A model generated the notes under the pieces. The model was not told the origin of the DNA. It saw only the letters and a list, made by a program, of their open reading frames with translations, and did not search any database. Shown piece by piece: positions 1,204 to 20,867 of a DNA stretch of 23,730 nt; position 1 is the first letter of the stretch; the number at the start of each line of letters is the position of its first letter. The DNA lies in NCBI GenBank assembly GCA_029779375.1, contig JAKPAR010000297.1:1-23730 (forward strand), given 5' to 3'. The translations under genes and the position numbers were made by a program. This DNA comes from Bacillota bacterium (lineage in GTDB: Bacteria > Bacillota > Clostridia > Tissierellales > Sporanaerobacteraceae).

Positions 1204-2583
1204 ATGAGAAAAGAGTATTTACAGCTAGATAAAATAGAGGGAGCAATAGTTGAGCTTTCAAACATTCATGATGCTCGTTATGGGGAAATAGTAGAAGTAG
1301 AAGATGAAAGAGGAGATAAGAAATTAGGAAGAGTTATAAAAATTGAAAATGAAAGAGTTATAATTCAAGTTTTTGGTTCTACTGTAGGGATGTCTACTCA
1401 TGGCACTAAGGTTCGTTTTCAAGGGAAACCTTTTGAAATACCTTTGTCTAAAGATATTTTAGGTAGAACTTTTAATGGAGTTGGAAAGCCTATCGATGGT
1501 GGAGGAGAAATATATTCAAAGGAGACTTTCAATATAAATGGGAGGCCAATAAATCCTGTAGCAAGGGAATATCCAAGAGATTATATACAAACAGGGATTT
1601 CGTCTATAGATGGTCTTATAACATTGATACGAGGACAAAAATTGCCTATATTTTCAGCAAGTGGGCTTCCACACAATGAATTGGCAGCACAAATTGTAAG
1701 ATATGCAAAAATAAAATCTAAAGATGGGGAAAAGACAAATTTTTGTATAGTATTTGCTGCTATGGGTGTTAAACATGATGAGGCTCATTTTTTTAGAGAT
1801 ACATTTGAAAAATCTCATGTTTTAGATAGAGTTGTCATGTATGTAAACTATGCGGATGATCCCATAATGGAAAGAATTATTTCACCTAGATGTGCACTGA
1901 CTGCTGCTGAATATTTAGCATTTGAAGAAAACATGCATGTATTAGTCATAATGACGGATATTACAAGCTATGGAGAAGCTTTAAGGGAAATTTCATCTTT
2001 AAGAGAAGAAGTTCCAAGTAGAAGGGGATATCCTGGATATCTATATTCAGATTTGGCTAGTTTATATGAAAGAGCTGGGATGTTAAAAAACAAAGAAGGA
2101 TCTATAACTCTCATACCAATTCTTACTATGCCAAATGATGATATTACTCATCCTATACCAGATTTGACAGGATATATAACAGAAGGGCAAATAGTTCTTT
2201 CAAGAGAATTGTATCAAAAAAATATTTATCCACCTATAAATGTACTACCTTCACTTTCAAGACTTATGAAAGATGGAATAGGAGAAGGATTTACAAGAAA
2301 AGATCATCCAGATGTGGCAAATCAACTTTTTTCATCTTATTCAAAAGTTCAAGAAGTAAGGGCTCTTGCACAAATAATAGGAGAAGATGACTTGTCAGAT
2401 AATGACAAAAAATATCTAGAGTTTGGAAGGCAATTTGAAGAAGTATTTATAACTCAAGGATTTAATGAAAATAGAGATATATTAGATACTTTAAATTTAG
2501 GATGGGAAATCCTTAAAATACTTCCTAAAGAAGAATTGGATAGATTAGATTCGAAATTGATAGAAGAGTATCTAGGGAAATAG
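1204..2583 (+). CDS. atpB: V-type ATP synthase regulatory subunit B
   Basis: This is the non-catalytic nucleotide-binding subunit that alternates with A in the V1 hexamer. The 459-residue length is normal for the family. As expected for B, the P-loop position is degenerate ([15 protein letters not shown] instead of GxxGxGKT), while the family stretches [12 protein letters not shown] and [13 protein letters not shown] are intact. The ATG at 1204 follows a GAGGTAGA ribosome binding site at 1190-1197. It lies 14 nt behind atpA and 8 nt ahead of atpD, so the three are cotranscribed. Nothing looks broken. Confidence 0.97.
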
Positions 2584-2591
2584 GTGATTTT

Positions 2592-3206
2592 ATGGCTGTA
2601 TATAAAATGACTCCAACAAAAGCTAATTTGATGAAAGCTAAAAGTTCTCTTGAATTTTCTAAAAAAGGGTATGATCTTTTGGACAAAAAGAGGACTGTTC
2701 TTATAAGAGAAATGATGGCTTTAATTGATGAAGCCAATAAAATAGAAGAAGAAATAAATGAAGGTTTCAAAGAGGCATATGAAAAACTTAAATATGCTAA
2801 TATAACTATGGGCTCAGAAAACATTGAAGAAATAGCTATGTCATTGGGGAAAGAAGAGGAATTTGAGATTTTATTTAAAAGTGTTATGGGGGTTGAAATA
2901 CCTTATATAAAATATGAAGAGAGGCCATTTTCTACGGAGTATGGATTTTTTAGAACAAATCCAACATTTGATATGGCAGTACTAAATTTTATAAAAATAA
3001 GATATTTAGTTTATAGATTGGCAGAAATAGAAAACTCTATTTATAAATTAGCTATGGAAATAAAAAAGACTCAAAAAAGAGCCAATGCTTTAGAGAAAAT
3101 TCAAATTCCTAAATATACAAGAGAGATAAAATCCATACAAGAAGTATTGGAAGAAAAAGAACGGGAAGATTTCTTTAGACTAAAAAGAGTAAAGGGCAAA
3201 AAATAA
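2592..3206 (+). CDS. atpD: V-type ATP synthase subunit D (central stalk)
   Basis: Subunit D is the long helical hairpin of the rotor shaft, turning inside the A3B3 head. The 204-residue product starts with the family's MTPTKANLMKAKSSLEFSKK stretch, has long charged helices at both ends, and ends with KYTREIKSIQEVLEEKEREDFFRLKRVK, the usual C-terminal coiled coil. It starts 8 nt after atpB. The stop codon at 3204-3206 lies inside the left arm of the terminator, so D is the last gene of the operon. Confidence 0.95.
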   Translation: MAVYKMTPTKANLMKAKSSLEFSKKGYDLLDKKRTVLIREMMALIDEANKIEEEINEGFKEAYEKLKYANITMGSENIEEIAMSLGKEEEFEILFKSVMGVEIPYIKYEERPFSTEYGFFRTNPTFDMAVLNFIKIRYLVYRLAEIENSIYKLAMEIKKTQKRANALEKIQIPKYTREIKSIQEVLEEKEREDFFRLKRVKGKK

Positions 3207-3240
3207 GGCTAGCAAATTGTAGCCTTATTTTTGTTAATTT
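3202..3240 (+). terminator. Intrinsic terminator of the V-ATPase operon
   Basis: A perfect 10-bp stem (AATAAGGCTA at 3202-3211 with TAGCCTTATT at 3220-3229), an 8-nt loop and a T-rich tail to 3240. The left arm overlaps the atpD stop codon. Confidence 0.9.
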
Positions 3241-3338
3241 TTTTGTATTTAGAATATTAAGATAATTTAATAAACATATAAAGGTAAAAATTTTCTTTTG
3301 TCGAATTAATATATATTATTGTATTTAGAGGTGATTGG

Positions 3339-4283
3339 ATGGACACGAGTGTTTTTGTAGATTTTAAAGAAAAGATAATAGAAAATGTTTCAAAAGTAAT
3401 AGTAGGGAAAAGTGATGTCATTGAACTTTTGATAGTCTCTTTTATATCAGGAGGTCATGTACTATTAGAAGATATTCCTGGAGTGGGAAAGACCATGCTT
3501 GTCAAGTCTTTTTCAAGGACATTGGGATTACCTTTCAAGAGAATTCAATTTACTCCAGATTTGCTTCCATCAGATCTTACAGGGATAAATTTTTACAATC
3601 AAAAGATAAATGAATTTGAATACAGAGAAGGTCCACTGTTTGCAAATATAGTATTGGCAGATGAGATAAACAGAGCAACTCCAAGAACTCAGTCAAGTTT
3701 GCTAGAGGCCATGGAGGAAAAGCAAATAACAGTAGATGGCGAAACTAGAAGATTAAATATTCCTTTTATGGTATTGGCTACTCAAAATCCAGTAGAATCT
3801 TATGGAACTTTTCCACTTCCAGAAGCTCAATTGGACAGATTTTTTATGAGAATAAATATGGGATATCCTACTAGAGAAGAAGAAAAGAAGATTATACATA
3901 AAAATACTTCCTTTAATATTGTAGATAGTCTTTCCAAAGTAATTCAAGAAGAAGAGCTAGAATATGTTTTAGAAAATTATAGCAAAGTAACTATTTCAGA
4001 AGATGTCTTAAATTATATCATGGATATAGTAGAGGCTACTAGAAATGATATAAAAATTCAGCTTGGTGTAAGCCCAAGGGGAACAATAGCACTATATAAA
4101 GCTTGTCAATCCTATGCAGCAATAAATGGTAGGGACTATATAATTCCAGAAGATATAAAGAAAATGGCACCTCACGTATTCAATCATAGAATACTTGTAA
4201 AAGGCATAAGTAAAATGGAAGATGGAGAAAAAGTGATAAAGGATATACTTGAAAAGATAAATGTTCCTACAGAGGAGATTTAG
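3339..4283 (+). CDS. MoxR-family AAA+ ATPase
   Basis: MoxR proteins are AAA+ ATPases thought to act as chaperones that activate or assemble partner complexes, commonly encoded beside DUF58 proteins. The 314-residue protein has Walker A IPGVGKT (lysine at residue 51), Walker B LADEINRA (D108, E109), the sensor-type stretch ATQNPVE and the lid-domain stretch VSPRGTIALYKACQSYA. The ATG at 3339 is preceded by AGAGGTGAT at 3327-3335. The DUF58 gene begins 2 nt after the stop, so translation is probably coupled. The 100 bases upstream are very AT-rich and I see no convincing sigma-A promoter there. The exact client is unknown. Confidence 0.93.
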   Translation: MDTSVFVDFKEKIIENVSKVIVGKSDVIELLIVSFISGGHVLLEDIPGVGKTMLVKSFSRTLGLPFKRIQFTPDLLPSDLTGINFYNQKINEFEYREGPLFANIVLADEINRATPRTQSSLLEAMEEKQITVDGETRRLNIPFMVLATQNPVESYGTFPLPEAQLDRFFMRINMGYPTREEEKKIIHKNTSFNIVDSLSKVIQEEELEYVLENYSKVTISEDVLNYIMDIVEATRNDIKIQLGVSPRGTIALYKACQSYAAINGRDYIIPEDIKKMAPHVFNHRILVKGISKMEDGEKVIKDILEKINVPTEEI

Positions 4284-4285
4284 CT

Positions 4286-5398
4286 ATGATCTGGTTTTAT
4301 ATTATATTGGTAGTCTTGACTTTTTCATTAAATAAATTAACTATAAAATATGGATTTAACAAAATTAATTATAAAAGAGAAATATCCAAGAAAAATGTAG
4401 AAATAGATGAAGAGTTTGATATAACTACAATATTAGAAAATAACAAGAGACTTCCAGTTACGTTTTTACAAGTAAATGAAAGGTTTCCTGATAGTTTCCA
4501 TTTTAAATTTAAGACCAATTCTACAGAAACACCTGGATATGTAGTTCATACAGTAGACTTTTTTCTTATGCCTTATCAAAGAGTAAAAAAGACTTATACC
4601 ATGCTATCAAAACAACGTGGTGTATATATGTTTAGAAATGTCTCTTTATCTTTAGGGGATTTTATAGGTTTTGAAAGTATAGACAAAGAAATTGAATATC
4701 TGCAGGAATTGGTTGTCCTTCCAAAACCTCTTTATTTGGAGGACTCTTTGGTTCCCTATGGGAACTATATGGGAGATATTTCTGTTAGAAGATGGATAAT
4801 TGATGACCCATTGATGACTTTAGGAATTAGGGAATACACTGGAAGAGAACCTCAAAAACATATTCACTGGAATTCATCCATTAGATATGGAAAACTCATG
4901 GTTAAAAATTTTGATTTTACTACAGATAATAGTTTAGTGTTTATTTTAAATATAGAATCCCATAAACCTTTCTGGTCTTTTATAGATAAAGAAAGTATAG
5001 AAGAGTGCATATCACTATCTAGAGGGATACTTGAAGAAATCGAAGAGGCAAAAATACCTTATGGATTTACTACAAATTCTCAAATATATGGTTTTTATAA
5101 TGGAGAAAATATAACATATCCAGGAGTAGGCTCAAGCCATTTGGAATATTTGTTGGAAATGCTAGGTAGGGTTTCTTACAGCATAACAGTACCCTTAGAA
5201 GAACTCATTGAAAATATCATGAATAGAAGTGAAAAGTACACTACTTATGTAATTGTTACCCCGAGAGTATTTAAATCATATATAGAGCCAATAGAAAACT
5301 TCAGTAGACAAGTAAATAGTTTGATTTTAATTTCTTTAGAAGAAGAAAATTTAGATTGTTTAAGTGAATCTATTATCAAATATGTGAGGAGAAAATAG
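4286..5398 (+). CDS. DUF58 domain-containing protein
   Basis: DUF58 proteins are widespread partners of MoxR ATPases; their biochemical role is not firmly known. The 370-residue product starts with one hydrophobic helix (about residues 2-18), continues with a beta-rich extracytoplasmic-looking stretch, and has the DUF58 signature around residues 175-210: IREYTGREPQKHIHWNSS followed by RYGKLMVKNFD. Only one clear membrane segment is seen; many relatives have two. The ribosome binding site GAGGAGAT lies inside the end of the moxR-like gene. The next gene starts at the base immediately after this stop. Confidence 0.9.
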   Translation: MIWFYIILVVLTFSLNKLTIKYGFNKINYKREISKKNVEIDEEFDITTILENNKRLPVTFLQVNERFPDSFHFKFKTNSTETPGYVVHTVDFFLMPYQRVKKTYTMLSKQRGVYMFRNVSLSLGDFIGFESIDKEIEYLQELVVLPKPLYLEDSLVPYGNYMGDISVRRWIIDDPLMTLGIREYTGREPQKHIHWNSSIRYGKLMVKNFDFTTDNSLVFILNIESHKPFWSFIDKESIEECISLSRGILEEIEEAKIPYGFTTNSQIYGFYNGENITYPGVGSSHLEYLLEMLGRVSYSITVPLEELIENIMNRSEKYTTYVIVTPRVFKSYIEPIENFSRQVNSLILISLEEENLDCLSESIIKYVRRK

Positions 5399-6616
5399 AT
5401 GGTAGGATTTAAAATTTTAGAAATCATGATGAATTTTTCCTTTGTATTTGCCATAACTACATACTTTTTGCCCTATAGTACTCTTGTAGGAAATTCTAAT
5501 GGCCTTTTTAACTATATGCTTATATATATATGGACTGTATTTGTAACTTATATAGGCTGCAAGTTAAAAGAACAGAAGAAATTCTATTTTTTAGTCATTC
5601 TTCTTATGTTGCCAATTCTTCTATTTTATAAAAATGCCAATTTCACAATGCTTACATCTATTGCCATGGGTTTTTATCTATATAAATATAAAGATTTATC
5701 TTCATCTTCTTCTGTAAAATTAAGTTTTAAGAAAGGAATTGGAATTTTCACTGCCGTAATTGCATTATCTTTGGTGACAATGACTTATTCTTTTATAAAT
5801 AGAGTATCAGGTTTTTTCATGATTATATATTTTATGACTGGAGTCATACTGATTAGAAGTTTAAGATATTTAGAGCATAACAAGGATATGGAAAAAATAA
5901 ATGGACAAAACATAAAATATTCAGTTTTTATAGTAGCATTTTCCCTTATATTGAGTACAGAGAAAGTTTTAAATGCAATATTACATGGTTTGAAAGTCAC
6001 ATATGATTTTTTAATAGATATGATATTTAAATTGTTTTATTGGGTTTTTATTGGTGCAGGATATATAGCTATGTTCTTGATAAAGATATTTCAAAAGTTT
6101 TTAAGGAATGGCAAATTTGAAATGCAAGAACAAAAACCTCCTGAGGAAACCTTAGAAGAGTTTATGAAAACAAATCAAGGTGAAATTTCTCCTGTATTTT
6201 TAGCAATAATAGACTGGGTATTCAAAATACTATTTATGGCTTTGATATTGTATATAATATGGAGAGTATTTAAAAGGAATATGTCTAAAAATATTATAGA
6301 AGAAGAATATATAGAGGAAAAGGAATATATTGGAGAAAAGAAGAAAAACAAGAAGAGAATTAGGATATTTAGACCTAAAAATGAAAAAGAAGCCATAAGG
6401 TATTATTATAGAAAATTTTTAAACAAATGCTTAAAAGATGATATAGCTATAGAAAGTCATGATACTACTATGGAAATAAACAAAAAAGCTGAAGCCCATT
6501 ATGCTCATGAATCTCTTGAAAGTTTGAGAAACACTTATATAGACGTGAGATATGGAGAAGTAGAAGTAAACAAAGATATAGTAAAAGAATTTAAAGAAAA
6601 CTACAAGAAAATATGA
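5399..6616 (+). CDS. Polytopic membrane protein with DUF4129-like C-terminus, no transglutaminase core
   Basis: This third gene of the MoxR/DUF58 operon encodes 405 residues. I see about seven hydrophobic segments between residues 8 and 235, another at about 268-288, a lysine/glutamate-rich linker (about 300-325), and a C-terminal soluble domain (about 328-405) with YYYRKFLNKCL and a later YIDVRYGEVEV, resembling DUF4129. In many Firmicutes this operon position holds a TgpA-type protein with a transglutaminase core between the membrane segments and the DUF4129 tail. Here the GxC, H and D core motifs are absent and the extracytoplasmic part is only a short stretch (about 240-265). The ATG has zero spacing to the upstream stop and a TGAGGAGA ribosome binding site. 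The DUF4129 assignment rests on pattern alone. Confidence 0.75.
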   Translation: MVGFKILEIMMNFSFVFAITTYFLPYSTLVGNSNGLFNYMLIYIWTVFVTYIGCKLKEQKKFYFLVILLMLPILLFYKNANFTMLTSIAMGFYLYKYKDLSSSSSVKLSFKKGIGIFTAVIALSLVTMTYSFINRVSGFFMIIYFMTGVILIRSLRYLEHNKDMEKINGQNIKYSVFIVAFSLILSTEKVLNAILHGLKVTYDFLIDMIFKLFYWVFIGAGYIAMFLIKIFQKFLRNGKFEMQEQKPPEETLEEFMKTNQGEISPVFLAIIDWVFKILFMALILYIIWRVFKRNMSKNIIEEEYIEEKEYIGEKKKNKKRIRIFRPKNEKEAIRYYYRKFLNKCLKDDIAIESHDTTMEINKKAEAHYAHESLESLRNTYIDVRYGEVEVNKDIVKEFKENYKKI

Positions 6617-6645
6617 AAAGCACCGCTTTGCGGTGCTTTATTTAT
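6617..6645. terminator. Bidirectional terminator between the DUF4129-like gene and pncB
   Basis: A perfect 10-bp stem (AAAGCACCGC at 6617-6626, GCGGTGCTTT at 6630-6639) with a 3-nt loop directly follows the plus-strand stop. The minus-strand pncB stop codon lies in its right arm, and both flanks are A/T-rich, so it can serve both convergent genes. Confidence 0.88.
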
Positions 6646-8092
6646 GTTCTTCCAACAAATTGTGTTTGATTGTCCACAAAGGCTTGGACAAATCTACAAA
6701 ATATTCATGAGGACTTTCTAAACGAGTGACTTCTTCCCACAAAGTATTTATTTGTTCATTGCAATAATTTTTTATTTCATTTATATTTGGGCTTGTATAT
6801 ACAGGTTCTCCTTTGTCAAATATCTGAACTAATAGTTTTCTTGCATAAAAGTTTGTAACTGTTTTTTTCTTCCATGTGTACAGAGGATGAAATATTTCAT
6901 AGGGCTTGGAATTGTCAATTTCTTCATCATGTAGAGTAACTACATCGGCAATGGCTTTGCCAGTTTTTTTGTCATACAATCTTTGAACTTGTTTGAATCC
7001 TGGCACAGTTATTTTTTCTACATTTTCACTTACTTTTATTTTTGGTACAATTTGACCATTTTCTTCAATGGCGGCCAATTTATATACTCCACCAAATACT
7101 GGTTCGGATTTAGCTGTGATGAGTCTTTCACCTACTCCAAAGGAGTCTATTTTTGCTCCTTGGTTTAGTAAATCCCTTATGACATATTCATCAAGAGCAT
7201 TGCTGGCTACAATGGAACAATCCTCAAAGCCTGCTTCATCTAGCATTTTTCTAGCTTCTTTTGACAGATAAGCTATATCTCCGCTATCTATACGAACTCC
7301 CTTTGGTCTAAATCCTTTTGGAATGAGCTCTTCATTGAAAGCCTTTATGGCATTTGGAATTCCTGATTTTAATACATTGTATGTGTCTACTAACAATACA
7401 CAATTGTCAGGATAAAGTCTTGCATAAGCTTTAAAAGCATCTAGTTCAGAAGGAAATACTTGAATCCAACTATGTGCCATAGTTCCCAAGGCCGGTACAT
7501 CAAAATCTCTATCTACAATAGTACAAGCTGTACCTACGCAACCTCCGATATAAGCTGCTCTGGCTCCCAAAATAGCACCTTCATATCCTTGAGCTCTACG
7601 AGAACCAAATTCCATTACAGCTCTTCCATTGGCGGCTCTAACTATTCTATTAGATTTTGTTGCAATAAGACTTTGGTGATTAATAGTCAATAGCACCATG
7701 GTTTCTATTATTTGTGCTTGAATAATTGGTCCTCTCACTGTAACTATAGGTTCTTGAGGGAAAATAGGAGTTCCTTCAGGAATAGCCCATACATCACATT
7801 CAAACTTAAAATTTTTCAAATACTCAAGGAAATCTTCACTAAATATGTTTTTGCTTCTAAAGTACTCAATATCATCTTCATCAAATCTTAAGTTTTTTAA
7901 GTATTCAATTAGTTGTTCTACTCCAGCCATTATTGCAAAACCGCCATCATCTGGGATGTCTCTGAAAAACATGTCAAAATAAGCAATCCTGTCTTTCATT
8001 CCACATTCAAGGTAACCGTTTGCCATAGTGAATTCATAGAAATCAGCTAGCATGGACAAGTTTTTTTTATCTTTCCAATCAATATTGGTCAT
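6638..8092 (-). CDS. pncB: Nicotinate phosphoribosyltransferase
   Basis: It converts nicotinate plus PRPP to nicotinate mononucleotide, coupled to ATP hydrolysis, in the Preiss-Handler NAD salvage pathway of the cytosol. The 484-residue protein is of normal length for the Firmicute type. Visible family features are DFYEFTMANGYLE near the N-terminus, EFGSRRAQG, the GTMAHSWIQ stretch whose His207 matches the transiently phosphorylated histidine, the RIDSGD ribose-phosphate site, and SFGVGERLITAKSEPVFGGVYKLAA. The ATG at 8092-8090 has an AAGGAGAA ribosome binding site at the usual distance. It is monocistronic: its own promoter lies at 8129-8157 and a terminator follows it. No nicotinate-repressor site was recognised. 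Confidence 0.96.
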   Translation of the reverse strand: MTNIDWKDKKNLSMLADFYEFTMANGYLECGMKDRIAYFDMFFRDIPDDGGFAIMAGVEQLIEYLKNLRFDEDDIEYFRSKNIFSEDFLEYLKNFKFECDVWAIPEGTPIFPQEPIVTVRGPIIQAQIIETMVLLTINHQSLIATKSNRIVRAANGRAVMEFGSRRAQGYEGAILGARAAYIGGCVGTACTIVDRDFDVPALGTMAHSWIQVFPSELDAFKAYARLYPDNCVLLVDTYNVLKSGIPNAIKAFNEELIPKGFRPKGVRIDSGDIAYLSKEARKMLDEAGFEDCSIVASNALDEYVIRDLLNQGAKIDSFGVGERLITAKSEPVFGGVYKLAAIEENGQIVPKIKVSENVEKITVPGFKQVQRLYDKKTGKAIADVVTLHDEEIDNSKPYEIFHPLYTWKKKTVTNFYARKLLVQIFDKGEPVYTSPNINEIKNYCNEQINTLWEEVTRLESPHEYFVDLSKPLWTIKHNLLEEHK

Positions 8093-8128
8093 TGCTAATT
8101 CTCCTTTTATAATTATAATGTTACATTC

Positions 8129-8157
8129 ATTATATTTCTAATTGTGAAAAATTTCAA
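8129..8157 (-). promoter_or_regulatory. Sigma-A promoter of pncB
   Basis: Read on the minus strand, TTGAAA (8157-8152), a 17-nt spacer and a perfect TATAAT (8134-8129). It sits about 40 nt ahead of the pncB start. Confidence 0.85.
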
Positions 8158-8164
8158 TACAATT

Positions 8165-8448
8165 GATATATATAAACAGGTGACCCCAATATTGTCTTAT
8201 TGAAGCCACCTGTTATTTAGAATAGAACCTATAGAAATTATCCCAACCATTTGAAAAACCAAAAGCTATACTTTCCAAACTTCTTATCAACTCTCCCTTT
8301 TACAATTTATTTTTAGTCTACAACCATTTGAAAATGCACATAATGCTTAAAACTTAAATACTACCAACTATACCAACTACATAAACAAATTCTGGATTTG
8401 AATGAACAAACAATGGTTGGTATAAATCTACTAGTTCTATTTACTTTA
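8165..8448 (-). ncRNA. Candidate small RNA or small-peptide locus between feoC and pncB
   Basis: This 470-base gap between feoC and pncB holds no annotated gene, but on the minus strand it has a near-consensus promoter (8449-8477) and, about 230 nt downstream, a two-part hairpin: AACAGGTG (8175-8182) pairs with CACCTGTT (8207-8214) and CAATA (8187-8191) with TATTG (8198-8202), followed on the minus strand by TTTATATATAT. In between are a perfect 9-bp inverted repeat (8369-8377 with 8416-8424) and a 14-bp direct repeat (8244-8257 and 8321-8334). A 25-codon frame starting with TTG at 8290 and stopping at 8213, right at the hairpin, follows AAAGGGAGAG, but the spacing is short and 25 open codons are not statistically unusual. 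I do not recognise any known RNA family here. It could equally be a decayed gene. Confidence 0.4.
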
Positions 8449-8477
8449 ATTATATACTATGCTAAAGTAAATGTAAA
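8449..8477 (-). promoter_or_regulatory. Near-consensus sigma-A promoter pointing into the feoC-pncB gap
   Basis: On the minus strand TTTACA (8477-8472), 17-nt spacer, TATAAT (8454-8449). No annotated gene starts within 350 nt downstream, and pncB has its own promoter. Confidence 0.7.
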
Positions 8478-8513
8478 GACTTTTTTCGAAATTTTTCAAA
8501 TATTTTTAAATTT

Positions 8514-8554
8514 TATTTTTAAAATAAAAGAGAATAGCTAAATAGCTATTCTCT
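8514..8554 (-). terminator. Intrinsic terminator of the feo operon
   Basis: A perfect 11-bp stem (8529-8539 with 8544-8554, AGAGAATAGCT and its complement) with a 4-nt loop, followed on the minus strand by TTTTATTTT. It starts about 10 nt after the feoC stop. Confidence 0.9.
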
Positions 8555-8563
8555 ACGATAAAA

Positions 8564-8818
8564 TCAATTGGAGGAAAGTAGTTTTTCTCCTTTTGGTGTT
8601 ATAACCATGGTATTGAGTGAAGAACTGCTACAGTTGAAGCTACAAAACTTACAATTTCTACTACAATGGCTTGGTTTTTCTTCTTCAAGATAACCCATTC
8701 TTTTTAATTGTTCTAAAGCATTTCCTACCATGTCTTCACTTACGTTTAATTTGTCAGCTAAAGATTTTTTAGAAAATATAGGCTGACGTTTTATTTCTCT
8801 TAATGTTTCAACCAACAT
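8564..8818 (-). CDS. feoC: FeoC-like winged-helix protein with Cys cluster
   Basis: This small 84-residue protein pairs a winged-helix N-terminus (about residues 1-47, with LADKLNVSEDMVGNALEQLK as the recognition-type helix) with a cysteine cluster C52-x3-C56-x2-C59-x3-C63, which could bind an iron-sulfur cluster. That is the FeoC pattern, and its position directly after feoB supports it. FeoC proteins are thought to regulate or stabilise FeoB. The ATG at 8818-8816 follows an AAGGAGC ribosome binding site that overlaps the end of feoB, so the two are cotranscribed. The family is divergent, so the symbol rests mainly on context plus the Cys cluster. Confidence 0.8.
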   Translation of the reverse strand: MLVETLREIKRQPIFSKKSLADKLNVSEDMVGNALEQLKRMGYLEEEKPSHCSRNCKFCSFNCSSSSLNTMVITPKGEKLLSSN

Positions 8819-8833
8819 AATATCAGCTCCTTT

Positions 8834-10843
8834 TTAGCTAAATCCCAATAGTGTTCCTATTTGGTAAACAAGAACTGCTCCTATCCATCCCACTAGAAAA
8901 GTATATAGGGCAGCAAAGAGAGCCCACTTGCTTGAATTGGTTTCTTTTCTTATAGTAGCTATAGTAGCTGCACAAGGTGTGTACAATAAGGTCATGACCA
9001 TAAATGAAATAGCGGACAGAGGAGTAAAAGCATTTTGTACTGCGGATATAAGAGCTGCTCCTTCTCCTACACCTGTATATACCATGCCTAGAGTAGCTAT
9101 GACAGCTTCTTTGGCCGCTAATCCTGCAAACAATCCTACAGCTGCTTGCCAAGTTCCAAATCCAGCGGGTTTAAATATAGGCGCTATAAAAGTGCCTATT
9201 TGTCCTAATATACTATTTTTGCTATAAGGTTCAACTCCAAGAGGTAGAACTGCTAGAATCCAAAGTATTGTCACTACAGCAAATATAGTAGTTCCAGCTC
9301 TTTTTAGAAATCCTGATACATTGTCCCACATATTTCTTAATACATTTCTAAAAGAAGGCAATCTATAAGGGGGAAGTTCCATGATAAAATAGGATGTTTC
9401 ACCTTTAAATAGAGTTTTGCTAAAAATTTTGCCCATCAACAATGCCACAAGAATTCCCAAAAAATAAAGCAAAAACAAAACTAGTCCACCTTTGTCAGGG
9501 AAAAAGGCAGCAATAAATACTAAATAAACGGGAATTCTAGCACCACAAGACATAAAAGGATTTATGAGAGTGGCAATCATCCTATCTTTTTTACTGTCTA
9601 AAGTCCTTGTAGCCATGATCCCAGGTACATTGCAGCCAAAACCTACTATCATGGAAATAAAAGTTTTACCTTGAAGTCCCAGTGCTCTCATGATATTGTC
9701 CATTACATAAGCAGCTCTAGCCATATATCCACTATCTTCCAATATACCCATAAGCATATATAATACCACTATCAATGGTATGAATTCTAAAACGGCTCCA
9801 ACTCCGCCTATAATTCCTTCTGAAACAAAAGAAACAAGCCACTTAGGAGAATTGGTTTTAACAAGGGAGTTTTTTATGATTTCGCCCAAAGCACCCATGG
9901 CCTCAGACATAAGTCCTCCAAGCAAATCTTCTCCCACAGCAAAAGTTAATTGAAATACTAATAGCATAATCAATGCGAAAATAGGAATACCTAGCCATTT
10001 ATTTGTAACTATTTTATCTATCTTATCCGTTTTGGTTTCTACATCTTCTTTAGGCCTTTTCACAGCTTTTTTAACTACATTGTTGACAAATTCATATCTT
10101 TTATCTACAATTTTCAACTCATAATCATCTATATTATCTTTTATTCTGTCAATAGTATCTTTAAATTCAGTAGAGGAATTTAAAGATTCATCATTACTTA
10201 ATAGTTCATATATATATTTATCTCCTTCTAAAAGTTTTATAGCAATCCATTGGGAAGGATATTCAAAATTTTTGTTATTTAAAAGTCTTTCTAAATTTTT
10301 TATTTCTCTGTCAATATCTTCTCCATAGCTTATTTTAACATTAGGTTTTATATCTTTATCAATCAATTCAATGGACATTTTAATCAATTCATCAATACCT
10401 TTTCTTTTAGATGCAATGGTTGGAACAATAGGCACACCTAGCTCTTTTGAAAGAGCTTCAATATCGAAATTGATATTTCTTTCTTGTGCTTCATCTATCA
10501 TATTTAATGCCACAACTACTTTAGCTTTCATTTCCAATAGTTGAGTAGTTAAATACAAATTTCTTTCAATATTTGTTGCATCCACTACATTTATGACCAC
10601 ATCTGGATTTCCTTTAAGAATAAAATCCCTTGCAACTATTTCATCTTCTGAAAAAGCTCCAAGGCTATAAGTTCCAGGTAAATCTACTACATTGTATGTT
10701 TTCCCGTTAAATTTAAATTTTCCTTCTTTTTTTTCCACAGTAACACCGGGCCAATTGCCTACATGCTGATTTGAGCCTGTAAGAGCATTAAAGACCGTGG
10801 TTTTACCACTATTTGGATTACCTACCAAAGCTAAAGTATTCAC
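8834..10843 (-). CDS. feoB: Ferrous iron transporter FeoB
   Basis: FeoB is the inner-membrane Fe2+ importer with a cytosolic G-protein domain. The 669-residue product has G1 GNPNSGKT (residues 8-15), the switch region around GNWPGVTVEKK, G3 DLPG (54-57), VDATNIERNLYLT, G4 NMID (114-117) and a G5-like ASKRKG, then a helical insertion (about 180-265) and a transport domain of about eight or more membrane segments from residue 285, including GFGCNVPGIMATRT and the matching SCGARIPVY half. The start is GTG at 10843-10841 with AAGGAGGG at 10850-10857. It lies between feoA and feoC in one operon under a Fur box. The gene looks intact. Confidence 0.97.
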   Translation of the reverse strand: MNTLALVGNPNSGKTTVFNALTGSNQHVGNWPGVTVEKKEGKFKFNGKTYNVVDLPGTYSLGAFSEDEIVARDFILKGNPDVVINVVDATNIERNLYLTTQLLEMKAKVVVALNMIDEAQERNINFDIEALSKELGVPIVPTIASKRKGIDELIKMSIELIDKDIKPNVKISYGEDIDREIKNLERLLNNKNFEYPSQWIAIKLLEGDKYIYELLSNDESLNSSTEFKDTIDRIKDNIDDYELKIVDKRYEFVNNVVKKAVKRPKEDVETKTDKIDKIVTNKWLGIPIFALIMLLVFQLTFAVGEDLLGGLMSEAMGALGEIIKNSLVKTNSPKWLVSFVSEGIIGGVGAVLEFIPLIVVLYMLMGILEDSGYMARAAYVMDNIMRALGLQGKTFISMIVGFGCNVPGIMATRTLDSKKDRMIATLINPFMSCGARIPVYLVFIAAFFPDKGGLVLFLLYFLGILVALLMGKIFSKTLFKGETSYFIMELPPYRLPSFRNVLRNMWDNVSGFLKRAGTTIFAVVTILWILAVLPLGVEPYSKNSILGQIGTFIAPIFKPAGFGTWQAAVGLFAGLAAKEAVIATLGMVYTGVGEGAALISAVQNAFTPLSAISFMVMTLLYTPCAATIATIRKETNSSKWALFAALYTFLVGWIGAVLVYQIGTLLGFS

Positions 10844-18936: not shown

Positions 18937-20517
18937 TTACAATTTTCCTGATTGCAATATAGATATGAGGAGCCAAAATCCTGCTACTGCAGCTCCCAAA
19001 TATCCAGTTATGCCTATGATAGATATGCCATGAATTTTGGGCCCTATATTGGCATTTAAAACTATTGAAGAGCTAACAACTAGTCCTACTACTACCATAC
19101 CAAATATCAATCTATTGACCATTTTGTTTAACTCATTTATGCTTTCTTCTGTTTTTTTAAATTCCAATTGGAGCTTTATTTTTCCATTTAATGCTTGATT
19201 GACTAAATCTAGCACTTTGACAGATAATTTCATATTTGCTCTAATTGATATATATAGTTTTTCTAGTACATCCATTATATTTAAATTTTTAATAGTTTCA
19301 TTGGCAAGACGATTTTTCATATATGGTAGAGCCACATCCATAATATTTATTTCTGTATCCAATTTAGCTATGACACCTTGAATAGTCAATAGACCTTTTA
19401 GCAACAAGGTTATATCTTTGGGCATGTGTATATTGTTGTTTTTGCATACTTTAAATACTTCTTCCATTATTTGAGGTATGTCAAAGTCATATAGAGATTC
19501 TTCGATGTATTGATCATACATTATTTCAATATCTCTATACAATTGCCTACCATTTACATCTCCTCTTTTTTGCCCAATTTTTAAAACTGCTCTAGTCATT
19601 TGATTTACATCTCTATCGACTACTGCTTCTAGCAATTCATTGAACTTTTTTCTCATATTGTTGTCTAGTTGTCCCATAAGTCCAAAATCAATATAGGCAA
19701 TTTTATTTTCATGAATAAGAATATTTCCAGGATGAGGATCCGCATGGAAAAAGCCATCTTCAAATATTTGTTTAAAATAATTGTAAATTAGTTTAGTAGC
19801 TATGTCTTTTAAATCATAACCTTCTTCTTGCAAAGTAGTCATATTGTCAATTTTTATTCCATCTATATAGTCCATTACAATTACTTTATCAGTACAATAT
19901 TTGCTGTATACTTTTGGGCACAATATGAAGTTTATATTTTCATTGTTTTCACAAAACTTTTCAATATTTTTCATTTCATTTTCGAAGTCTAATTCTTTTT
20001 CAGTGGCATTTGAAAGTTCTTCCACTACTTCTCTAGCATCCATGGCACTTCCAGTAGGAGTAAGGTTGATAAATGGAGCTAGTTTTTTAAGTATAGCTAT
20101 ATCTGCCATCATCTTTTCTTCTACAAGTGGTCTTTGAACTTTGACTACAACTTTTTCTCCGGTTTTTAGCATAGCAAAATGAACTTGGGCTAATGAAGCA
20201 GAGGCTATAGGTTCTTCTTCAAAATATAAAAAGATTTCTTCTAGTGGTTTTCCCAATTCATTTTCTACAACATTTTTTACAATATTGTATTCTTCAGGTT
20301 TTACATCGTCTTGCAATTTTTGAAGTTCCAAAATATATTCATTGGGAAAGATATCCGGTCTTGTAGAGAGTATTTGACCAATTTTGATGAAAGTAGGTCC
20401 CAATTCTTCCAAAGTAAGACGAAATTCTCTTGGGTCACTTACACCTTTTTTGAGTCCATGCTTTATGGACACAGAAGCTATTTCTTTAAATCTTTTTTTA
20501 GTATAATTTGTATCCAT
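18937..20517 (-). CDS. ABC1/AarF/UbiB-family atypical kinase
   Basis: These atypical protein-kinase-like ATPases support isoprenoid-lipid metabolism (ubiquinone in Proteobacteria); the substrate in Gram-positive anaerobes is unknown. The 526-residue product has the family KxGQ motif (KIGQ, residues 45-48), the Ala-rich loop as ASASLAQVH, the invariant VVKVQRP lysine, HADPHPGN and DFGLMG, and two C-terminal hydrophobic helices (about 465-485 and 500-522) that anchor it in the membrane. The ATG at 20517-20515 has no ribosome binding site next to it. The nearest AGGAGG (20566-20561 on this strand) is separated from it by a hairpin. It follows the phasin-like gene, a pairing I believe is common in Clostridia. 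Confidence 0.9.
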   Translation of the reverse strand: MDTNYTKKRFKEIASVSIKHGLKKGVSDPREFRLTLEELGPTFIKIGQILSTRPDIFPNEYILELQKLQDDVKPEEYNIVKNVVENELGKPLEEIFLYFEEEPIASASLAQVHFAMLKTGEKVVVKVQRPLVEEKMMADIAILKKLAPFINLTPTGSAMDAREVVEELSNATEKELDFENEMKNIEKFCENNENINFILCPKVYSKYCTDKVIVMDYIDGIKIDNMTTLQEEGYDLKDIATKLIYNYFKQIFEDGFFHADPHPGNILIHENKIAYIDFGLMGQLDNNMRKKFNELLEAVVDRDVNQMTRAVLKIGQKRGDVNGRQLYRDIEIMYDQYIEESLYDFDIPQIMEEVFKVCKNNNIHMPKDITLLLKGLLTIQGVIAKLDTEINIMDVALPYMKNRLANETIKNLNIMDVLEKLYISIRANMKLSVKVLDLVNQALNGKIKLQLEFKKTEESINELNKMVNRLIFGMVVVGLVVSSSIVLNANIGPKIHGISIIGITGYLGAAVAGFWLLISILQSGKL

Positions 20518-20566
20518 ATTGTTTAAAAAATACCTTGATATTGTATATCAAGGTATTTTTCCTCCT
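20518..20566 (-). promoter_or_regulatory. Shine-Dalgarno, hairpin, start-codon arrangement before the kinase gene
   Basis: On the minus strand AGGAGG (20566-20561) is followed immediately by a perfect 15-bp hairpin (20560-20546 with 20540-20526, loop of 5 nt, TACCTTGATA core with A/T ends), then 8 nt (TAAACAAT), then the ATG at 20517. If folded, the hairpin brings AGGAGG to a normal 8-nt distance; unfolded the distance is 43 nt. The stem followed by a T-run is also a terminator-like shape, so it may also reduce transcription from the upstream gene. Confidence 0.65.
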
Positions 20567-20573
20567 ATGCTAA

Positions 20574-20867
20574 TTATTTTTTTTCTAAATTATCAATTCT
20601 AGTTTTTAATTCATCAATATCAGCTTTTGTAGGTAAGTTTAATTCTTGCAAAACACTCTTTAGAGTTTCAGCATCTACATTTTGAGATTTTTTTTCAGAT
20701 TCTTGAGATTTTACTACTCTTTTTAGTTCTTCATTTAACTCTTTCCCTTGATTTACAGTTAGTTCTCCTTTTTTAACTAGAGTATCAATCATTTCATTAG
20801 CTTTTTCATAAGTAAGAGCCATACTGCCTATTCCTGCCAATAGCAAAGTTTTTAAATTTGTATCCAT
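20574..20867 (-). CDS. Phasin-like coiled-coil protein
   Basis: This 97-residue protein has a hydrophobic N-terminal helix (LKTLLLAGIGSMAL), a linker helix with TLVKKGELTVNQGKELNEEL and a charged C-terminal coiled coil (LPTKADIDELKTRIDNLEKK). The layout resembles the small phasin/PhaF-like proteins often annotated as polyhydroxyalkanoate-synthesis regulators, but no polymer-synthesis gene is near, so that function is doubtful. A frame opens at 20888, but its first codons contain the ribosome binding site (a run of seven G at about 20880), which fits the ATG at 20867. The ABC1 kinase follows; the two probably form an operon, possibly with yaaR upstream. Confidence 0.78.
   Translation of the reverse strand: MDTNLKTLLLAGIGSMALTYEKANEMIDTLVKKGELTVNQGKELNEELKRVVKSQESEKKSQNVDAETLKSVLQELNLPTKADIDELKTRIDNLEKK

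Follow-up and report, generated by a model that had tools for sequence, protein, structure and literature searches.

In the thrS gene of Escherichia coli, the Shine-Dalgarno (SD) sequence and the start codon lie downstream of a hairpin. This hairpin spans positions -48 to -14 (PMC3936740) and belongs to a split ribosome-binding site in which the ribosome accommodates the long hairpin without unfolding it (PMC3936740, citing Sacerdot et al. 1998). Another example is that of genes 38 and 25 of bacteriophage T4, where RNA structure has been reported to cut the SD-AUG distance from 22 to 5 nt and from 27 to 11 nt, respectively; the gene 25 structure has been kept among closely related T-even phages, and distant ones lack it (PMC3014915). 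The cases located in print of a hairpin acting as the SD-start spacer are two genes of one phage, and a literature search for other cellular hairpin-spacer sites surfaced only the T4 and thrS examples, which does not establish absence in print. Here, we describe a site upstream of an ABC1-family kinase gene that is very probably a structured-spacer (split) ribosome-binding site, as in T4 genes 38 and 25, in bacterial chromosomes. The likeness to the phage genes lies in an SD too far from the start and an intervening RNA structure that shortens the distance. Unlike them, the kinase site occurs on bacterial chromosomes in members of five families, with stems of 10-18 bp and raw gaps of 35-46 nt, and has a hairpin that is terminator-like in part of its members. 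The difference from thrS is that the hairpin stands between the SD and the start rather than upstream of both; in addition, no autoregulation is known for the kinase site.

The window (the whole stretch of DNA that was analysed, 23,730 nucleotides) carries on its minus strand a DUF327 gene, a phasin-like gene and the kinase gene, which belongs to the ABC1/UbiB family (Table 1). The two genes flanking the site begin with a common 13-mer, since both the phasin-like gene (20867) and the kinase (20517) start, on the minus strand, with ATGGATACAAATT; in a near relative (L002), the phasin protein differs at its start from the fourth residue. Similarity among the kinases of the clade defined below runs from the Met at 20517 onward.

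Table 1. Features around the kinase start, with positions in the window.
Feature	Position	Strand	Remarks
ABC1-family atypical kinase, 526 aa	18937..20517	-	PF03109, E 5.4e-78; starts at ATG 20517
Unpaired 8-nt linker TAAACAAT	20518..20525	-	between hairpin and ATG 20517-20515
Hairpin (structured spacer)	20526..20560	-	arms 20560-20545 and 20541-20526, 16 bp; loop 20544-20542
Shine-Dalgarno AGGAGG	20561..20566	-	directly 5' of hairpin; 7 nt past phasin-like stop codon
Phasin-like gene, 97 aa	20574..20867	-	PF05597, E 1.8e-9; immediately upstream of kinase

Read on the minus strand, AGGAGG stands directly 5' of a perfect hairpin that is followed by 8 nt and the ATG, as the preliminary description of this DNA had it, with the correction that the stem given there as 15 bp with a 5-nt loop has 16 bp and a 3-nt loop (17 bp if the last G of the SD pairs with a U). 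The SD-to-ATG distance is 43 nt raw and 7-8 nt folded; the figures of 43 and 8 nt given in that description hold, the latter counted after the 16-bp stem. The minus-strand fold of positions 20500-20600 has a minimum free energy of -20.5 kcal/mol (z -6.98), none of 200 shuffles being as stable, and the plus-strand fold of the site gives z -4.68. The anti-SD duplex reaches -10.2 kcal/mol just 5' of the stem versus -4.0 kcal/mol in the last 20 nt before the ATG, which bears out the claim that no ribosome-binding site lies within 20 nt of the kinase start; this weaker match sits within the 3' arm of the stem. The folding prediction also gives the window's ATG weak contacts with the bases that immediately precede the SD (probability of an unpaired ATG, 0.09).

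Kinase orthologues were found in 34 of 249 genomes of the order (E up to 1e-140) and in 16 cases outside it, 13 from a 391-genome sample and 3 from 88 further genomes. The SD-hairpin-ATG layout is present in 27 of these 50 orthologues. All 27 belong to the order, where the others show the reverse layout, hairpin-SD-ATG, with an SD 3' of the hairpin and none 5' (three, L029-L031, from another genus), a hairpin without a strong SD (two, L051 and L052) or no hairpin (two, L053 and L054). Among the 16 out-of-order orthologues, some lack a hairpin and the rest have one, either followed by an SD or with no strong SD. The layouts were classified by eye, with some doubt about where L044 and L106 start, and the inspection took in all but 19 of 53 matches, those at 31-38% identity; the genomes are a sample of species, several of them likely metagenome-assembled, and the evidence is wholly comparative. 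The 27 layout-bearing kinases make up one side of a branch with support 100/99 in a midpoint-rooted kinase tree that has seven open forks and long branches elsewhere, and the clade spans five families of one order. An SD core, GGAGG or GGGGGG, precedes the stem in 27/27 clade members. The preliminary description held that homologues lacking the stem, or having a normal SD, would speak against the proposal; such homologues do exist, but all 23 fall outside the clade and none has a strong SD core (GGAGG or GGGGGG) 5' of its longest stem.

Outside the clade, a hairpin but no strong SD was seen in L032, L035, L041-L043, L051 and L052. Some of these have weaker motifs before the stem, namely GGAG in L032 (-6.4 kcal/mol), L051 (-5.9 kcal/mol) and L052 (-6.6 kcal/mol), and AGGA in L041 (-4.3 kcal/mol), which may reflect chance or stages toward the clade SD. 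The three GGAG motifs lie inside or near the last phasin codons, 5' of the hairpin. In the class relatives L041-L043, the kinase start is preceded at 8-11 nt by a strong hairpin that is flanked by no strong SD, and in L041 and L043 the phasin stop codon is apparently in the hairpin loop, so that a different start mechanism may operate there. L038, which has a hairpin and then an SD, is outside the clade and leaves the clade result unaffected. The upstream regions of L048-L050, covered by the model scan only, gave no match up to E 1.

Conservation of the stem was assessed by a covariation count on the 27-sequence clade alignment with an 11-pair stem, the 23 non-clade orthologues lacking the layout being left out. 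In this alignment, 98.3% of 293 cells are paired (11 of them as G-U), and pairing drops to 35-56% when the arms are slid out of register. Changes on both sides occur in 6 of the 11 pairs, a number reached by 4 of 500 shuffles, and the double-changed cells amount to 39 versus 13.4 on shuffling, which no shuffle of 500 reached; the count of pair types is not above the shuffles (104/500 reach the observed value). Parsimony places only five double changes at ten gap-free pairs, on four branches, and the shuffle control therefore overstates the number of events. The covariation of the stem that the preliminary description had looked for among homologues, together with a conserved SD and a residual spacing close to that of ordinary genes, was found in 27/27 clade members. 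Stem length varies from 10 to 18 bp across the clade, loop length is also variable, and the predicted unpaired probability of the SD ranges from 0.26 to 0.95. An RNA thermometer in the hairpin itself was considered and rejected, the SD lying outside the core stem and the predicted core pair probability being at least 0.94 at 60 °C in 27/27; the temperature switch once suggested for this site is accordingly unlikely. Beyond the hairpin, the SD and the ATG are predicted to pair weakly, to an extent that differs between clade members.

The raw SD-to-ATG gap is 35-46 nt in all 27 clade members, beyond the preferred spacings of S. aureus, which are two to three nt longer than those of E. coli (PMC13009471). 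With the longest stem removed, the residual gap is 3-12 nt (mean 8.3) and the linker from stem to start 3-10 nt, compared with a mode of 7 and a mean of 7.1 for ordinary AGGAGG-ATG spacing (165 pairs from three relatives, sought within about 20 nt). The residual gap shifts with the point chosen as the end of the A-U base of the stem, and its spread (sd 2.4) is hardly below that of the raw gap (sd 3.1). The ensemble path length is 6.9 versus a mean of 12.3 for shuffled spacers, single loci being mostly unremarkable; shuffled spacers fold too, and depending on the locus, 1 to 37 out of 100 of them bridge just as tightly, which makes the path-length test weakly informative.

Under the structured-spacer reading, the 30S subunit would pair with AGGAGG and take up the hairpin that adjoins it on the 3' side, still folded, as a side branch. 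The ATG would then be placed by the base of the stem at 7-8 nt from the SD, close to the usual spacing, and translation of the kinase would depend on the folded hairpin. The comparison establishes the anatomy of the site, its conservation and covariation, a residual gap within the ordinary range, and its retention where the upstream gene is missing. Points against the reading are the weak pairing predicted for the window's ATG, the variable exposure of the SD, the near-equal spread of raw and residual gaps, the bridging by shuffled spacers, the count of pair types, and the TTG and SD-like motif within the stem. Bacteria are able to initiate translation without an SD, and relatives exist with a hairpin but no strong SD; it is for these reasons that we infer, rather than observe, the use of the SD. 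A single origin appears probable, in which an SD arose or was brought in on the 5' side of a hairpin of terminator type downstream of phasin; that hairpin may at first have been a terminator-like element, given that many non-clade relatives have hairpins after their phasin gene.

Intrinsic terminators consist of a G+C-rich hairpin followed by a T-run. In the family of the window, the stem is preceded by an A-run and followed by a T-run that is drawn into the pairing of the stem, and it does look like a terminator there, as pointed out in the preliminary description; in ten clade members the T-run is interrupted or only 1-3 long. It is conceivable, although somewhat doubtful, that the hairpin works as terminator and bridge together, a possibility compatible with the structured spacer: the hairpin would stop some transcripts, so that phasin would be made in excess of the kinase, and would serve as the spacer in those that read through. 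One stem can serve both functions, and a phasin match lies within 900 nt upstream in 24/27 clade members, but the T-run is not clade-wide and termination would be useless where the phasin gene is absent. In fact, no phasin match was found in the 900 nt upstream of the kinase in L017, L027 and L028, and in L021, of the same genus as L017, an in-frame stop codon breaks the phasin-like gene upstream of an intact kinase leader. The SD, the hairpin and the ATG are kept in these four, where the association with an upstream gene expected of an intrinsic terminator is thus missing. The element is directly preceded by the DUF327 gene in L027 and L028; L017 has an alcohol-dehydrogenase-like gene (read from the translation) upstream, and then a strong terminator-like site about 240 nt before the element. 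The combined switch for termination and translation that had been put forward finds no support, as the T-run is not kept across the clade and the element survives where phasin is not found.

A second possibility is that the hairpin does no more than terminate the phasin-like transcript intrinsically or stabilise its 3' end, the SD being incidental and the kinase translated weakly or by coupling. This is unlikely. The runs flanking the stem in the window's family, the hairpins behind phasin in many non-clade relatives and the terminator-like look of four other model matches (see below) agree with it, but an SD core lies just 5' of the stem in every clade member, the T-run is inconstant and the element is retained without an intact phasin gene; this last point argues for more than a terminator of phasin. 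With phasin gone, its terminator would have nothing to keep it in place, and a ribosome-binding site of the kinase would. No other single argument is as strong as INDEPENDENCE from the phasin gene, which among the genomes compared rests on two genera (g49, g54). A site scan for terminators called none at the window hairpin, probably because the T-run was counted into the stem. As a separate observation, the phasin frame of L014, L022, L024 and L025 crosses the SD of the kinase and has its stop codon at the stem base, which would put a ribosome terminating on phasin over that SD.

The layout is rare in the genomes scanned. A strict scan (stems of 9 bp or longer, including 2 G-C pairs) of both strands of 400 kb of a same-family genome found 446 hairpins and no SD-hairpin-start case, and in the window it returned this site alone. 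Among 1,041 ORFs of at least 100 aa in 1,200 kb of three genomes, no gene without a normal SD shows the layout; the four loose matches fell in three ORFs, all with a conventional SD at some start. These stretches exclude the kinase loci of the three genomes; the strict and loose scans do recover the window kinase. A loose scan of 383 ORFs gave 33 bridged candidates. Of these, 32 fell in ORFs where one start or another has a normal SD; the remaining one has a TTG start. A repeat family was also considered and rejected: the exact palindrome occurs in a single copy in the window's genome assembly (89% complete), and a covariance model matched once per genome, at the kinase, in 27/27 clade genomes (20 of about 1,800-9,700 candidates scored in each, under strict filters that may miss weaker copies). 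With the same 20 candidates scored per genome, four other matches appeared in the order (L102, L103, L104 and L148); they look like plain terminators, the kinase is not downstream, and no SD was seen by eye before the stem. The L102 site is presumably behind an EF-Tu-like gene and the L103 site behind a regulator-like gene, those of L104 and L148 being flanked, by our reading, by a dehydrogenase-like gene on one side and on the other by a gene that has an SD of its own. Rfam gave no match in the window at gathering score.

The stem also contains start-like signals. A TTG lies inside it, 8-13 nt from the SD, in 26/27 clade members (out of frame with the kinase in 22 of the 26), and in L011 it has been lost through a compensated change. 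In addition, the 3' arm holds AAGG, AGGG or ATGG, ending 9-18 nt before the ATG, in 27/27. Since the TTG and the 3'-arm motif are both hidden in the folded stem, the stem may also decide which start is used. In such a start-site selector, the SD would serve the ATG when the stem is folded; if the stem were opened by a helicase, a protein or a ribosome terminating on phasin, the same SD would serve the TTG, tying kinase synthesis to the state of the stem and to upstream translation, and in the window's family the stem would also set the number of transcripts that reach the kinase. We regard this extension as improbable. Less probable still is a weak conventional SD concealed in the 3' arm, which opening of the stem would expose so as to switch the kinase on. 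The motif is universal in the clade and reaches -6.5 to -7.3 kcal/mol in five members (L008, L011, L012, L014, at -6.5, and L024, at -7.3 kcal/mol), but it scores only -3.3 to -4.5 kcal/mol in 22/27, against -9.3 to -12.4 kcal/mol for the upstream SD in 27/27; a strong distant SD with none near the start thus characterises the window and 22/27, the five exceptions having the weaker SD-like motif. Exposure of the 3' arm would also leave the retention of the upstream core unexplained, and the stem is predicted to be stable. That the SD serves a short leader ORF from the stem TTG, whose translation controls the kinase, is highly improbable: the TTG stands at a suitable place in nearly all members, but the reading frames considered and rejected fall in every frame with respect to the kinase, run for 1 to 26 codons or into the kinase and share no apparent peptide, and L011 has no TTG. 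Equally improbable is a DNA operator palindrome or other protein-binding site, since inverted DNA repeats covary as well but the G-U pairs suit RNA rather than a DNA operator, the loop varies in length and the place between SD and ATG is fixed.

If the structured spacer is real, a site of this type has been retained by cellular genes in members of five bacterial families, perhaps through reuse of a terminator hairpin. Start predictors that demand an SD within about 20 nt would misread these genes, and so would operon predictors that cut at terminator-like hairpins. The orthologues, 27 with the layout and 23 without, several of intermediate layout, offer a natural series for studying the acceptance of a spacer helix by the 30S subunit.
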